Of a stretch of DNA of 64,000 nucleotides, positions 38,580 to 43,715 are shown one piece after another. The notes under the pieces are model-generated. The model ran no database searches and was not told where the DNA came from. It was given only the letters and a program-made list of their open reading frames with translations. Source of the DNA: Komagataeibacter medellinensis NBRC 3288 (lineage in GTDB: Bacteria > Pseudomonadota > Alphaproteobacteria > Acetobacterales > Acetobacteraceae); assembly GCF_000182745.2 (NCBI RefSeq), contig NC_016027.1, forward strand, positions 2,579,001 through 2,643,000, in the 5' to 3' direction. Made by a program: the position numbers and the translations under genes. Position 1 is the stretch's first letter. Every line of letters starts with the position of its first letter.

Positions 38580-39908
38580 TCATAATGCGGCCATGGGTGG
38601 CATATCCGTAATCATGCCCCCTTGGAGCAAGGCAGAGAGCTTGCCTAGCGCTTCGCCCCGGTCCACTGACTTGCCATAGGGCATGTTGGGCCTGAGCCGT
38701 TCCTCCAGCCGTGCTACGGAGCCACGGCGCGGCCATGGGCGACGCAGTAGTTCTTCCACCAGTTCAGGATGACGCCAGGGAATATCAATCCAGGCGGCAC
38801 CATGGCGCAGGGTGCTGGCATCGGCGCGCAAGATCTGCGGGAACAGGGCAATCATACGGCGTCCCTCTGCTTCCATGGCAGGGGTACATGCTGGCTGCCG
38901 GCTGCCGCATATATGGTTGAGCAGGCGGTGGATCAATGTCGTGCCGCCATGGTACAGATGGCCGATCTGGGTCAGGCGGGGGTTCATTTCAATGAAATGA
39001 TACGTACCGGTTTTTGCGCACCGGACAAAATCCAGCCCGAAAAAACCCGACAGGTTCAATGTCGCGCATGTAACCTGCGCGGCGCGCTCCATATCGGCGG
39101 ACTGGGTAATCTCTATTACGGTGGCAGCACCCGTACGGCCCTGATAGGAGACGACATCTACCCCCAGCATGCCAATCACCTTGCCCTCCCAGCATGCCAC
39201 CATGATATTGGCGGGCTTGCCCGGTATATAGGCTTGGGCGATGACGGGCATGGACTGCCGTGTCGTGGCTTCCATAAAGGAATAGATATCACGATCAGCC
39301 AGGAGTACCCGGAGCGCACAGGCCATCCGGACCGGTTGCGACAGACGGCGGAAACCGTTTTCCGCTTCCTGAAGGGTATCGGCAATCACGACGCCCGATC
39401 CTCCCCAACTCCGGTCGCGCTTGAGTACCCATGGCCCCGGCGTGCTCGCACACCACCGTTTCAGGTCGTTCACGTCATTCAGATTGATGGCGGCAGGTGT
39501 CGGAATATCGCGAGCCCGCAGCATATCGATCAGCCTGAGCCGTGTCTGTGTATAGGCAAAATAGTCCGACTGGCCCAGCGAGCGGGTGATGATGTCGCGG
39601 CAGAGCCTCCCAGCCGGGGTCTTGGGGTCAGCTTCCCTGTATACCTGATGCAGCGCCCCCACCGCGCGGTCATCGGCAGGAATGATCAGATCCGGCCTTA
39701 TCCGCACAATGGCATCCGACAATACGGCGGTTGTGGAGAGATACGGATAGTTCTGGAAGGTCCTGATCCCCTTCAGGCACCGAAGCGAATGGCCGGGTGG
39801 ACACAAGGCATGGACTGTAACGGCACTTTCCAGAAATTCCAGCGCCGCGCGGGTAATGGCTGACCACCACACGGAGGTGATGATAAGAACTGTAAAATCA
39901 TTTTTCAT
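38580..39908 (-). CDS. ATP-grasp ligase-like protein of unknown substrate
   Basis: 442 aa from ATG 39908 (MKNDFTVLIITSVWWSAITRAA). A pre-ATP-grasp domain (LIIPADDRAVGALHQVY) is followed by the ATP-grasp core: GPWVLKRDRSWGGSGVVIADTLQEAE (the nucleotide-binding Lys and glycine loop) and GLDFVRCAKTGTYHFIEMNPRLTQIGHL, the carboxylate metal-site motif with E-x-N-PR. This is the carbamoyl-phosphate-synthase-like subset that makes carboxyl-amine or carboxyl-thiol bonds via acylphosphates. It is 29 nt downstream of a flavoprotein gene on the same strand; together they look like a small biosynthetic unit. Confidence 0.8.
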   Translation of the reverse strand: MKNDFTVLIITSVWWSAITRAALEFLESAVTVHALCPPGHSLRCLKGIRTFQNYPYLSTTAVLSDAIVRIRPDLIIPADDRAVGALHQVYREADPKTPAGRLCRDIITRSLGQSDYFAYTQTRLRLIDMLRARDIPTPAAINLNDVNDLKRWCASTPGPWVLKRDRSWGGSGVVIADTLQEAENGFRRLSQPVRMACALRVLLADRDIYSFMEATTRQSMPVIAQAYIPGKPANIMVACWEGKVIGMLGVDVVSYQGRTGAATVIEITQSADMERAAQVTCATLNLSGFFGLDFVRCAKTGTYHFIEMNPRLTQIGHLYHGGTTLIHRLLNHICGSRQPACTPAMEAEGRRMIALFPQILRADASTLRHGAAWIDIPWRHPELVEELLRRPWPRRGSVARLEERLRPNMPYGKSVDRGEALGKLSALLQGGMITDMPPMAAL

Positions 39909-39936
39909 GGTTTTGGACTTTTCAGTTCGGTTTTGG

Positions 39937-41169
39937 CTACGCGGAAGCGGCTTGTGATATGGGCAATTGTACGGATTGGCGCCTGAACCGGGCCGACAGC
40001 CGCCGTGCGGCAAAGCGCGCGCCCCAGGCAAAGCGGAGCATGGGCCCGAAACTGCCTGCAGCCAGCGGGCCGATGAAGTAAAGCCCGGGAACGCTCGATT
40101 CAAAGTTGTGGGATAGCCGGGGCATGTTGTCATCCTTGCGGATGGCGTGTGCCAGCGCAGGGTCCATAAAGGGGATGCGTTCGGGGGCTACTTGCACGCC
40201 AGTGCCAAAAAATACGTGGTCGACCTCTACCGTGCATCGGCGGTCTACTTTGATATCCTGAAATTCAAGATGGACCTGCTGGCCATGCATGTGCGCTTTC
40301 TGAAGGTCGAGGTTAAGCCAGATCGGCACCTTCTCCCGCACGACCTGCCCCGTAACCCAACTGGCGGCGGGCCCGAGATGGCCGCGGGTTATGCGCAGCC
40401 GCAGCTTGGCAGGAAGCATATGGAATATATCGGGTAGGTCGCATGCCATGCGCGAGCGCCAGCCCGTTCCCAGCCCTGATAACGGTTTTTTCACGCGCCG
40501 GGCCAGTAGCTTCAGCCCCTTGATGGGTTCAGGCGGGTTATTGATCCATATTTTGGGTCGACGTGTGCAGATAAAGGTTTCCGCTCCCGCCTCATGCAGG
40601 AAACTTGCCGTATCCACCGCTGAGGCCCCGGCACCGATCACCGCGACCCGCTTGCCTGCAAACTGGTCGAAGGCAGTCTCGTTGAACGTATGGCTGAAAC
40701 GTTCGGGCGGAAGGTTCCGGGCGGCAGGCGGTATGCAGGGGAAATGCTGGATACCAATGGCCATGACGACATTACGGGCAAAGACATTCTCGCCCGTGTC
40801 CAGGGTTAGCATGAACCCGTCACGCATTTGGGAAAGGTGCTTGACCAGAAAGGGTTCAAGCTGGGGAACATGGGTTTTCTGGAAGGCTTCGCCATATTCA
40901 ATGAAGATATTATTGGGAATGGGCTTGCCGATGGAAGCATACGGGTAGCCACGTTCCCTGCAGAAGCGTTCCAACGTGGATCTGCGATCGGGGTCAAACA
41001 GGTCAAGAGCAAAGCCTTCGGCCTTGAGGCGCAGCATCCTGGGCACATGATCACGCCAGAACCCCATGGGATGACCAAAAATGCGAAAATTTGTCCCTTG
41101 TTTGTTCAGATGTGCCGCCAGCGAAAGACCGTAAGGCCCTGCTCCGATAATGGCTATGTCGATATACAT
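39937..41169 (-). CDS. FAD/NAD(P)-dependent oxidoreductase, flavin-containing monooxygenase-like
   Basis: 410 aa from ATG 41169 (MYIDIAIIGAGPYGLSLAAHL). Two Rossmann motifs are visible: FAD-binding GAGPYGLSLAAHL at residues about 9-21 and NAD(P)-binding VAVIGAGASAVDTASFLHEAG near 170. A GHPMGFWRDHVPRMLRLKAEG segment and the final GLYFIGPLAAGSFGPMLRFAWGARFAAR fit FMO/N-hydroxylase-like enzymes, with weak similarity to the SidA/IucD idea. Upstream lies an AT-rich region with a probable promoter. Partner: the ATP-grasp gene directly downstream. Confidence 0.8.
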   Translation of the reverse strand: MYIDIAIIGAGPYGLSLAAHLNKQGTNFRIFGHPMGFWRDHVPRMLRLKAEGFALDLFDPDRRSTLERFCRERGYPYASIGKPIPNNIFIEYGEAFQKTHVPQLEPFLVKHLSQMRDGFMLTLDTGENVFARNVVMAIGIQHFPCIPPAARNLPPERFSHTFNETAFDQFAGKRVAVIGAGASAVDTASFLHEAGAETFICTRRPKIWINNPPEPIKGLKLLARRVKKPLSGLGTGWRSRMACDLPDIFHMLPAKLRLRITRGHLGPAASWVTGQVVREKVPIWLNLDLQKAHMHGQQVHLEFQDIKVDRRCTVEVDHVFFGTGVQVAPERIPFMDPALAHAIRKDDNMPRLSHNFESSVPGLYFIGPLAAGSFGPMLRFAWGARFAARRLSARFRRQSVQLPISQAASA

Positions 41170-41232
41170 CACAGATCCATCATCCTGTATGCCCAAATAC
41201 CATAAATATTTTAATAAATAAAAAAATAACAC

Positions 41233-42311: not shown

Positions 42312-42619
42312 TGGTGTCCGCGGCGGGATTCGAACCCACGGCCCCAGGATTCATACCACTTCGGCTTTCACCGCCGCCATGTTGCACATGGCGTTCGTGG
42401 TCTGGACTGTCCCTTCACCATGGACCGTGTGCGGTCGACAGGTGCTGCCCATCCAGTCTCTACACCTTACCGGCAGAAGCCGGTCTTGGCTCGGGATTGG
42501 CACGGCAGCGAACTGCCAGAGCGTTCCCCGAATTTGAGCAGATCCGCCATGTGGTTTCCCGTCATGACGCCCAATTAAAACCAGGAATCCTGTGCTCTAT
42601 CCGGCTGAGCTACGCGGAC
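42312..42619 (-). tRNA. tRNA-Arg(CCU) interrupted by a group I intron
   Basis: Exon 1 (42619-42583) reads GTCCGCG-TA-GCTC-AGCCGGATA-GAGC-A-CAGGA-TTCCT; exon 2 (42351-42312) reads AA-TCCTG-GGGCC-GTGGG-TTCGAAT-CCCGC-CGCGGAC-A-CCA. All stems pair: acceptor 7 bp, D stem GCTC/GAGC, anticodon stem CAGGA/TCCTG, T stem GTGGG/CCCGC with one G-T pair. The 7-base anticodon loop TTCCTAA contains CCT. The mature tRNA is 77 nt with genome-encoded CCA. The intron lies after the third anticodon base. The same position is known for tRNA-Arg(CCU) introns in Agrobacterium. Confidence 0.93.
42352..42582 (-). ncRNA. Group I intron (IC3-like), 231 nt, in the tRNA-Arg(CCU) anticodon loop
   Basis: 5' exon ends in T and the intron ends in G (complement of 42352), as group I splicing requires. 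Core segments match the Azoarcus tRNA-Ile intron: CGGGAAACCAC in the P2 loop (P2 CGTCATG pairs with CATGGCG), CTCAAATTCGGGGAA (42525-42539, P4/J), AATCCCGAGCCAAG (42485-42498, J6/P6), AAGGTGTAGAGACT (42455-42468, P3/P7), ATGGTGAAGGGACAGTCCAG around 42401-42420 (P8/P3/P7). P1 can form between exon CCT and intron GGG. No endonuclease ORF is present, so it is a small autocatalytic ribozyme without its own mobility gene. Confidence 0.92.
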
Positions 42620-42692: not shown

Positions 42693-43715
42693 CTAGCGGC
42701 GCCTACGTGCCTGCTGCGCCAGACTGCACAGGCGGGCAACATGGCGCAGGGTCAGCACGATATCGGGGCTACCGGTCTGTTTGCAGGCCAGTTCCAGGGC
42801 CTGCGTTTCCTGTGCCGCGCGCAACAGGGCGGGCGCGGACCACACTGTCAGCGCCTGGCCAAAGCTGTCCGTGCGCTTGAAGAAGACCGGCGGTCGCAAC
42901 TGCTGCATGGCATCGGCCCGGCTCATGCCCCCATCCATTGCCAGCCGAACCCGGCGCAGGCGGTGGATGTGAGACAGAAGGGCGCGGGTCATGTCGGTGG
43001 GGCGGCTGCCATCAACCGTCAGCGCGCGCTCGGCCGCCGCATCGGCTTCCCTGCGTTGGCCCGCCATGGCGGCGAAGGCTGCATCCTCCATCGAAACACC
43101 GGCGGCATCCCCCACACAGGCCCGTACATCTTCCAGCCCCAGTCGGCCGCCAGTGCCGGCAAACAGGGCCAGTTTTTCCACTTCGCTGCGGGTGGCAGCG
43201 CGATCAGGGCCGGCACGTTCGACCATCCAGCCCAGCGCATCGGGGTCTATGCCCACTTCCTGTGCGGCCAGCATCTGGCGGATCGCCCCTTCCAGCGCAC
43301 GGCCTTCTTCGGGGTAGCAGCCGATCAGGGCGCAGTGTGCGTCTTTTTCCACAAAGCCACGCAGTTTGGAGCGAGCTTCTAGCCCCGGTGCTTCCATGAT
43401 CACCAATGCATCGGATGGTTGCGCCAGGCTGCGCTTCAACGGTTCGAGCAGGCTGTCATCGGCTCCCTCGCGCAGCCAGATTACGCGCCGCCCACCACTT
43501 AGCGACAGGGCGGTCATTTCTTCTTCCAGCCGGGCATGGTCCGCACGCCCCAGCATGGCCACACGAAAGGGGTCATGCAGGTCGGGGCAGATGGCTTTCG
43601 CGGCTGTGGTGGCCCGTTCGCGGATCAGGCCGACATCATCACCATGCAGCACGATGACCCGCAGCCTGCCCGGCGCTTGTAGCGTGGTGGCGATATTGCG
43701 CGGGCTGACCTTCAC
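42693..43715 (-). CDS. holA: DNA polymerase III delta subunit
   Basis: 340 aa. GTG start at 43715 overlaps the lptE stop (TGA at 43712-43714). The product resembles HolA: residues LRVIVLHGDDVGLIRERA near the N-terminus (replacing the Walker A of clamp loaders), then ERAGPDRAATRSEVEKLALFAG and a helical collar with LLSHIHRLRRVRLAMDGG. It opens the beta clamp as part of the gamma complex. Final gene of the leuS-lptE-holA unit. Confidence 0.93.
   Translation of the reverse strand: MKVSPRNIATTLQAPGRLRVIVLHGDDVGLIRERATTAAKAICPDLHDPFRVAMLGRADHARLEEEMTALSLSGGRRVIWLREGADDSLLEPLKRSLAQPSDALVIMEAPGLEARSKLRGFVEKDAHCALIGCYPEEGRALEGAIRQMLAAQEVGIDPDALGWMVERAGPDRAATRSEVEKLALFAGTGGRLGLEDVRACVGDAAGVSMEDAAFAAMAGQRREADAAAERALTVDGSRPTDMTRALLSHIHRLRRVRLAMDGGMSRADAMQQLRPPVFFKRTDSFGQALTVWSAPALLRAAQETQALELACKQTGSPDIVLTLRHVARLCSLAQQARRRR

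Follow-up and report, generated by a model that had tools for sequence, protein, structure and literature searches.

The Azoarcus tRNA-Ile intron is a small intron of the IC3 type that lies in the anticodon loop of its host. It is named as the Azoarcus tRNA-Ile IC3 intron in PMC3984707. PMC7717549 describes a second system, BbgpI, an intron in the tRNA-Arg(CCU) of Bartonella bacilliformis that self-splices in vitro and is spliced in vivo, and for the tRNA-Arg(CCU) intron family it cites Agrobacterium and Paquin 1999. In acetic acid bacteria, a 2015 genome paper (PMC4596401) marks one tRNA(Arg) as split by a sequence resembling group I introns; the mark is given to species of Asaia, Acetobacter, Gluconobacter, Komagataeibacter and Gluconacetobacter, and not to Granulibacter. 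Since these five acetic acid bacteria include Komagataeibacter, the type of intron that we describe below is not new. Cyanobacterial tRNA-Arg, tRNA-Gly and tRNA-Lys introns of 22 to 49 nt are reported as group I in PMC5733544; in our own judgement, they are too short for a group I core.

The window analysed here, a stretch of 64,000 nucleotides, comes from Komagataeibacter medellinensis NBRC 3288, and the locus occupies positions 42312-42619 on its minus strand. With introns allowed, ARAGORN called a tRNA-Arg(cct) with an intron of 231 nt, matching exactly the coordinates and the anticodon-loop site given in the initial annotation. The 5′ exon (37 nt; 42583..42619, minus strand) has the anticodon CCU at its end, and its final 9 bases are the same in all 56 rows of the alignment described below; the 3′ exon (40 nt; 42312..42351, minus strand) encodes the CCA. 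The intron (231 nt; 42352..42582, minus strand) contains no recognised gene, has its terminal G at 42352, and is inserted between anticodon base 36 and base 37. Once the 231 nt are removed, the two halves form the cloverleaf that had been proposed for them, with full acceptor, D, anticodon and T stems that are paired throughout, the only wobble being a single one in the T stem. ARAGORN run without introns called no tRNA in the window, and Rfam at gathering cut-offs gave no match there. Because the tRNA is missed at default settings, the gene is easily omitted from annotation; beyond annotation, the window's own intron matters little.

The tRNA is preceded, at a distance of 73 bp and in the same orientation, by holA (42693..43715, minus strand), which encodes the delta subunit of DNA polymerase III (TIGR01128, 155.8 bits against a cut-off of 80), and leuS lies further upstream, beyond holA. 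holA stands beside the tRNA in 18 of the 69 family loci checked, all 18 of them intron-bearing, and in none of 12 intronless loci, although the flanks are short and absence means little. The nearest of nine loci compared is that of Komagataeibacter rhaeticus (L217), with 88.6% identity over 4.8 kb; the contig coordinates of its intron agree with those of the intron match in G587, a genome from the genus of the window. Elsewhere in the window (38580-41232, minus strand), an ATP-grasp protein adjoins a pyridine-nucleotide/flavin-type oxidoreductase.

At relaxed settings, in a search of 551 bases, the Rfam group I intron model RF00028 matched the insert with 34.8 bits (E 3.2e-7), and the match takes in the entire model, from position 1 to position 253 of 253. 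Across the 3.5-Mb genome the intron was the sole match at E <= 0.001 (E 4.8e-7). The score of 34.8 bits is below the Rfam gathering cut-off of 50, which is a curation threshold and no defining biological feature. The match, together with covariation of the fold, confirms the group I core that had been placed inside the insert: the core from P3 to P8 is conserved, with its guanosine site in P7, and the U at the 5′ splice site, its U.G pair in P1 and the G at the end of the intron, the first and last of which had been noted from the sequence, are invariant in all 56 aligned tRNA-Arg(CCU) introns. The longest stop-free stretch on the intron sense strand is 76 codons, and neither this nor any of six open reading frames overlapping the intron matched a Pfam family at E <= 0.001; we saw no homing endonuclease, in agreement with the initial annotation. 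The drawn fold has a simple P5, with no P5abc seen, which together with the small size and the tRNA host is consistent with IC3 as a tentative label.

The fold was drawn on the window sequence and then counted over an alignment of 56 tRNA-Arg(CCU) introns, comprising that of the window and those of 55 of the 74 family genomes holding one; left out were L037 and L066 (unread bases), L057 (missed by the exon search) and the remaining loci, which were unfetched. All elements are on the minus strand. The internal guide GGG (42570..42572) pairs with the exon CCU (42585-42583) to form P1, with U.G at the splice site. P2 is a hairpin (42545..42569) with a GAAA loop, present as GAAA in 52 of the 56 rows, and 7 of its 9 pairs show two-sided changes. 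The stretch from P3 to P3′ (42445..42541) holds P3 (42541-42536 / 42450-42445), P4 (42531-42527 / 42495-42491), P5, P6, P6a and the 5′ strand of P7 (42458-42454). It is followed by a segment (42405..42444) with P8 (42444-42441 / 42419-42416), changed on both sides in 3 of 4 pairs, and the 3′ strand of P7 (42409-42405), the guanosine-binding helix. A P9.0-like helix (strands 42401-42397 / 42359-42355) encloses P9 and a GNRA-capped hairpin (42355..42401 as a whole), and helices 13-15 together have 16 pairs, 13 of them with two-sided changes; the loop of this last hairpin is GNRA in 56 of 56 rows.

Over the alignment, 95.4% of 3836 cells were paired and 44 of 69 pairs carried two-sided changes. 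Shuffled alignments gave 82.7% paired cells and 30.5 two-sided pairs, none of 500 being as high as the real alignment, and six slid registers gave 31-43% paired. Since every one of the 500 shuffles and each of the six slid registers falls below the true register in pairing and covariation, we conclude that the fold, with its conservation across these introns, is not due to chance. Covariation is carried by P2, P3, P5, P6a, P8, P8a, P9.0, P9 and the last hairpin. P1, P4, P6 and P7 do not vary in the 56 rows, and hence offer no covariation, either for or against the fold. Pairing is looser in places: the upper pairs of P5 are kept in just 79.4% of cells, and 23 of 56 rows fail to form one terminal pair of the P9.0-like helix. 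The 5′ side of P8 reads CCUGUC, the form in the window, in 15 of 56 rows and CCUAAG in 9 of 56, which is reminiscent of the known tetraloop receptor. The minimum-energy fold of the precursor departs in part from the catalytic fold, in a program that cannot represent a pseudoknot.

We built a model, R1, from 56 cores, with Arg and Leu introns together; because the window supplies one of these sequences, the strong match of R1 to the window is partly by construction. The initial annotation had suggested comparing presence or absence of the intron in related genomes, and in this comparison R1 matched all 19 genomes of the genus, in four of which the host tRNA was checked, and 88 of the 200 genomes of the family sample, at 99 places. 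By hand count, 74 of the 99 places are in tRNA-Arg(CCU), that is, in 74 of the 200 genomes. R1 also matched 130 of 200 genomes in a sample of the order, where every row shown belonged to the same family, 49 of 385 in a sample of the class and 41 of 398 in a sample of the phylum, these samples overlapping and the large ones being filtered more strictly. At empty sites, in all 12 loci chosen for looking intronless, nothing separates the two exons. The kinship with alphaproteobacterial tRNA-Arg(CCU) introns that had been proposed was likewise supported, both by insertion after CCU and by the grouping of intron sequences, the window row falling within a supported tree set of 12 rows, all Arg(CCU). 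In one genome, G169, a truncated copy (L049; C1:1816992-1817098) comprises the 3′ part of the intron and the 3′ exon, with a full copy elsewhere in the genome. It could be an attachment-site duplicate; by inspection alone, we recognised no integrase among the long open frames beside it.

We are close to certain that a group I intron (IC3-like), with no gene of its own, splits the only tRNA-Arg(CCU) gene that we found here, at the junction of bases 36 and 37, and that it most likely self-splices to yield a mature AGG-reading tRNA. The intron would fold within the precursor RNA and bind guanosine in P7; with the exon CCU paired to the guide GGG in P1, a cut would follow after the U of this triplet, and the exons would then be joined after the terminal G. 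These two steps, demonstrated for the Bartonella relative, most likely operate here as well. Within the bacterial family, the intron would have been mostly inherited and often lost. An intron of the archaeal bulge-helix-bulge type, spliced by proteins, could occupy a comparable anticodon-loop location, but we rejected this reading as having practically no chance of being correct, given a group I core that matches RF00028 along the entire model and a host genome that is bacterial. A decaying relic, with splicing lost, the tRNA dead and AGG read by tRNA-Arg(UCU), would fit with the intact tRNA-Arg(UCU) of this genome and with the rarity of AGG (8 among the 166 Arg codons of five genes in the window). 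However, every catalytic element is intact, the exon ends flanking the splice sites show no change across the 56 rows except at one position, and R1 matches all 19 genomes of the genus; we regard such decay as very improbable, and retain the self-splicing intron as our interpretation.

The initial annotation had further claimed that decoding of AGG depends on ribozyme splicing, and this is not supported as stated. The tRNA-Arg(UCU) type generally reads AGG by wobble, and an uninterrupted tRNA-Arg(UCU) is present in the genome of the window, so that ribozyme-dependent decoding is too strong a claim for this genome. If AGG were nonetheless wholly dependent on this ribozyme, splicing would be a possible control point for translation. 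We found no second copy of tRNA-Arg(CCU) in the genome, interrupted or not, which favours dependence, in a tRNA list that is possibly incomplete (0 of 47 tRNA matches read as Ile(GAU) or Ala(UGC)). On the other hand, relatives with an uninterrupted tRNA-Arg(CCU) exist, and a promoter and terminator scan gave nothing on the tRNA strand: no promoter was found, and the one terminator-like site is on the opposite strand and represents fewer than in shuffles. Taken with the intact tRNA-Arg(UCU), these observations make complete dependence unlikely in our estimation. A draft genome of about 180 contigs, G076, has both tRNA-Arg(CCU) and tRNA-Arg(UCU) interrupted (loci L025 and L041), and in this draft we found no intact copy of either AGA/AGG-reading tRNA. 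There, the best full-length or near-full matches to an Arg(UCU) query were Arg(ACG), Lys(UUU) and Arg(CCG). For an Arg(CCU) query, the two exons, lying apart, gave the only matches above about 90%. Decoding of AGA and AGG could be ribozyme-dependent in G076.

Introns of the same type occur in other tRNA genes. The remaining 25 places in the family, assigned partly by eye, were Leu(UAA) (14), Thr(GGU) (5), and Lys(UUU), Arg(UCU) and Leu(CAA) (one each), with two in a gene that resembles Leu(UAG) but has an odd loop and one in a weak Asn(GUU) (46.5 bits). In the set of all loci, where many genomes are seen twice and 118 loci came by a pattern from the intron 3′ end, 244 of 245 matches received host labels, among the matches listed: Arg(CCU) 105, Leu(UAA) 95, Leu(CAA) 13, Thr(GGU) 12, Lys(UUU) 8, Lys(CUU) 4, Thr(CGU) 2, Arg(UCU) 1 and Asn(GUU) 1. 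The labels Pro (L044), Gly (L285) and Trp (L298) are held to be wrong, L047 is without a label, and that of L308 is doubtful. Ten more matches had no host label at first; two of these are partial copies, and L312 was later read as Leu(CAA). A further 20 loci comprised Ile(CAU) (4), Lys(UUU) (4), Leu(CAA) (4), Leu(UAA) (4), Thr(UGU) (1), Arg(UCU) (1), Arg(CCU) (1) and the unassigned L333; ARAGORN called the four Ile(CAU) hosts Met(CAT), and L319, L323, L327 and L331, which had tied or higher-scoring odd readings, were settled by eye.

Under the rules for assigning a host, the base preceding the 5′ splice site had to be U or C and that preceding the 3′ site G, with a 7-base loop and U33. A first round was often ambiguous, Arg CCU being also read as His, Thr or Pro, and a second chose by likeness to the tRNAs of the window genome. 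The last base of the 5′ exon is U in 233 and C in 11 of the 244 among the matches listed, a pattern that is partly built in, since the rule allowed U or C only. In the Leu(CAA) introns L167, L174, L175, L219, L220, L227, L231, L235, L254 and L255, the 5′ exon as assigned ends in C, giving C-G and not U.G at the splice site. Loci in other tRNAs fall in L032-L051, L257-L263 and L315-L334 (Leu(UAA), Leu(CAA), Thr(GGU), Thr(UGU), Lys(UUU), Arg(UCU) and Ile(CAU), some by eye). Two weak tandem matches, of 34% and 48% G+C, lie in L308:532-1147, and two matches on opposite strands lie within 630 bases in L142:5590-6219, one in tRNA-Leu(UAA) and the other without an assigned tRNA. G777 and G952 each have three R1 matches, of which one is weak, at 40 bits.

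In both large groups the guide matches its exon. By a strict test, among the matches listed, 93 of 104 Arg(CCU) introns carry the guide GGG and none carries GAG, and 86 of 94 Leu(UAA) introns carry GAG and none carries GGG. In the smaller groups, again among the matches listed, the strict fit is 10 of 12 for Thr GGU, 2 of 3 for Lys CUU and 1 of 1 for Arg UCU, and is poor for Lys UUU (2 of 8), Leu CAA (6 of 13) and Thr CGU (0 of 2), in a test that requires exact pairs and misses guides with G.U. The Thr guide GCC is uninformative, as 58 of 94 Leu(UAA) rows among the matches listed contain it too. A loose P1 test, allowing G.U in a 9-base context, was dropped: it paired 192 of 204 introns, yet swapped exons paired in 678 of 858.

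We drew a tree of 117 cores from 206 near-full cores, with Arg and Leu UAA thinned and with two Lys rows and one Arg(UCU) row. It groups mostly by host tRNA, with 14 host changes against 54.4 in shuffles, indicating that moves between tRNAs were few among the tree rows. Single host moves are unsure, because 49 of 110 inner branches are weakly supported and several long branches meet. One reading of the survey, to which we give even weight for and against, is that one small gene-less intron lineage entered the anticodon loops of about ten Pseudomonadota tRNA isoacceptors (Arg CCU, Arg UCU, Leu UAA, Leu CAA, Thr GGU, Thr UGU, Thr CGU, Lys UUU, Lys CUU and Ile CAU), nearly always directly after a U and with the guide refitted to the new exon, as reverse splicing would lead one to expect, and that a codon pair then became ribozyme-dependent in some genomes, as for AGA/AGG in G076. 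The host range outside the window (Leu, Thr, Lys, Ile and Arg(UCU)) may be new; among the matches listed, we recognised no report of introns of this type in tRNA-Thr or tRNA-Lys of Proteobacteria in the literature searched, a weak negative for a search with subscription literature mostly outside it. This wider range matters more than the window intron and is the part worth following: it provides a naturally occurring set of related ribozymes placed at various sites, and the rule for entering a new tRNA, that the guide fits the exon, is directly testable.

We conclude that the intron observation is real, that its family is already described in acetic acid bacteria, and that the window intron is a sound, ordinary member of that known family. 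In the order of its helices it is presumably the same as the Azoarcus tRNA-Ile intron, and it differs from that intron in its host tRNA. It is like BbgpI, as described in PMC7717549, in sharing the same tRNA and the same anticodon, and unlike it in belonging to another bacterium. The split tRNA(Arg) of PMC4596401 is from the same bacterial family and has an insert homologous to group I introns; unlike the present analysis, that paper notes it in one table footnote, and its section 3.1 gives no anticodon, structure or wider distribution. Finally, the proteobacterial tRNA-Leu(UAA) introns have the same core as the window intron, R1 finding both, but differ from it in being inserted after base 34 and in having the guide GAG instead of GGG.
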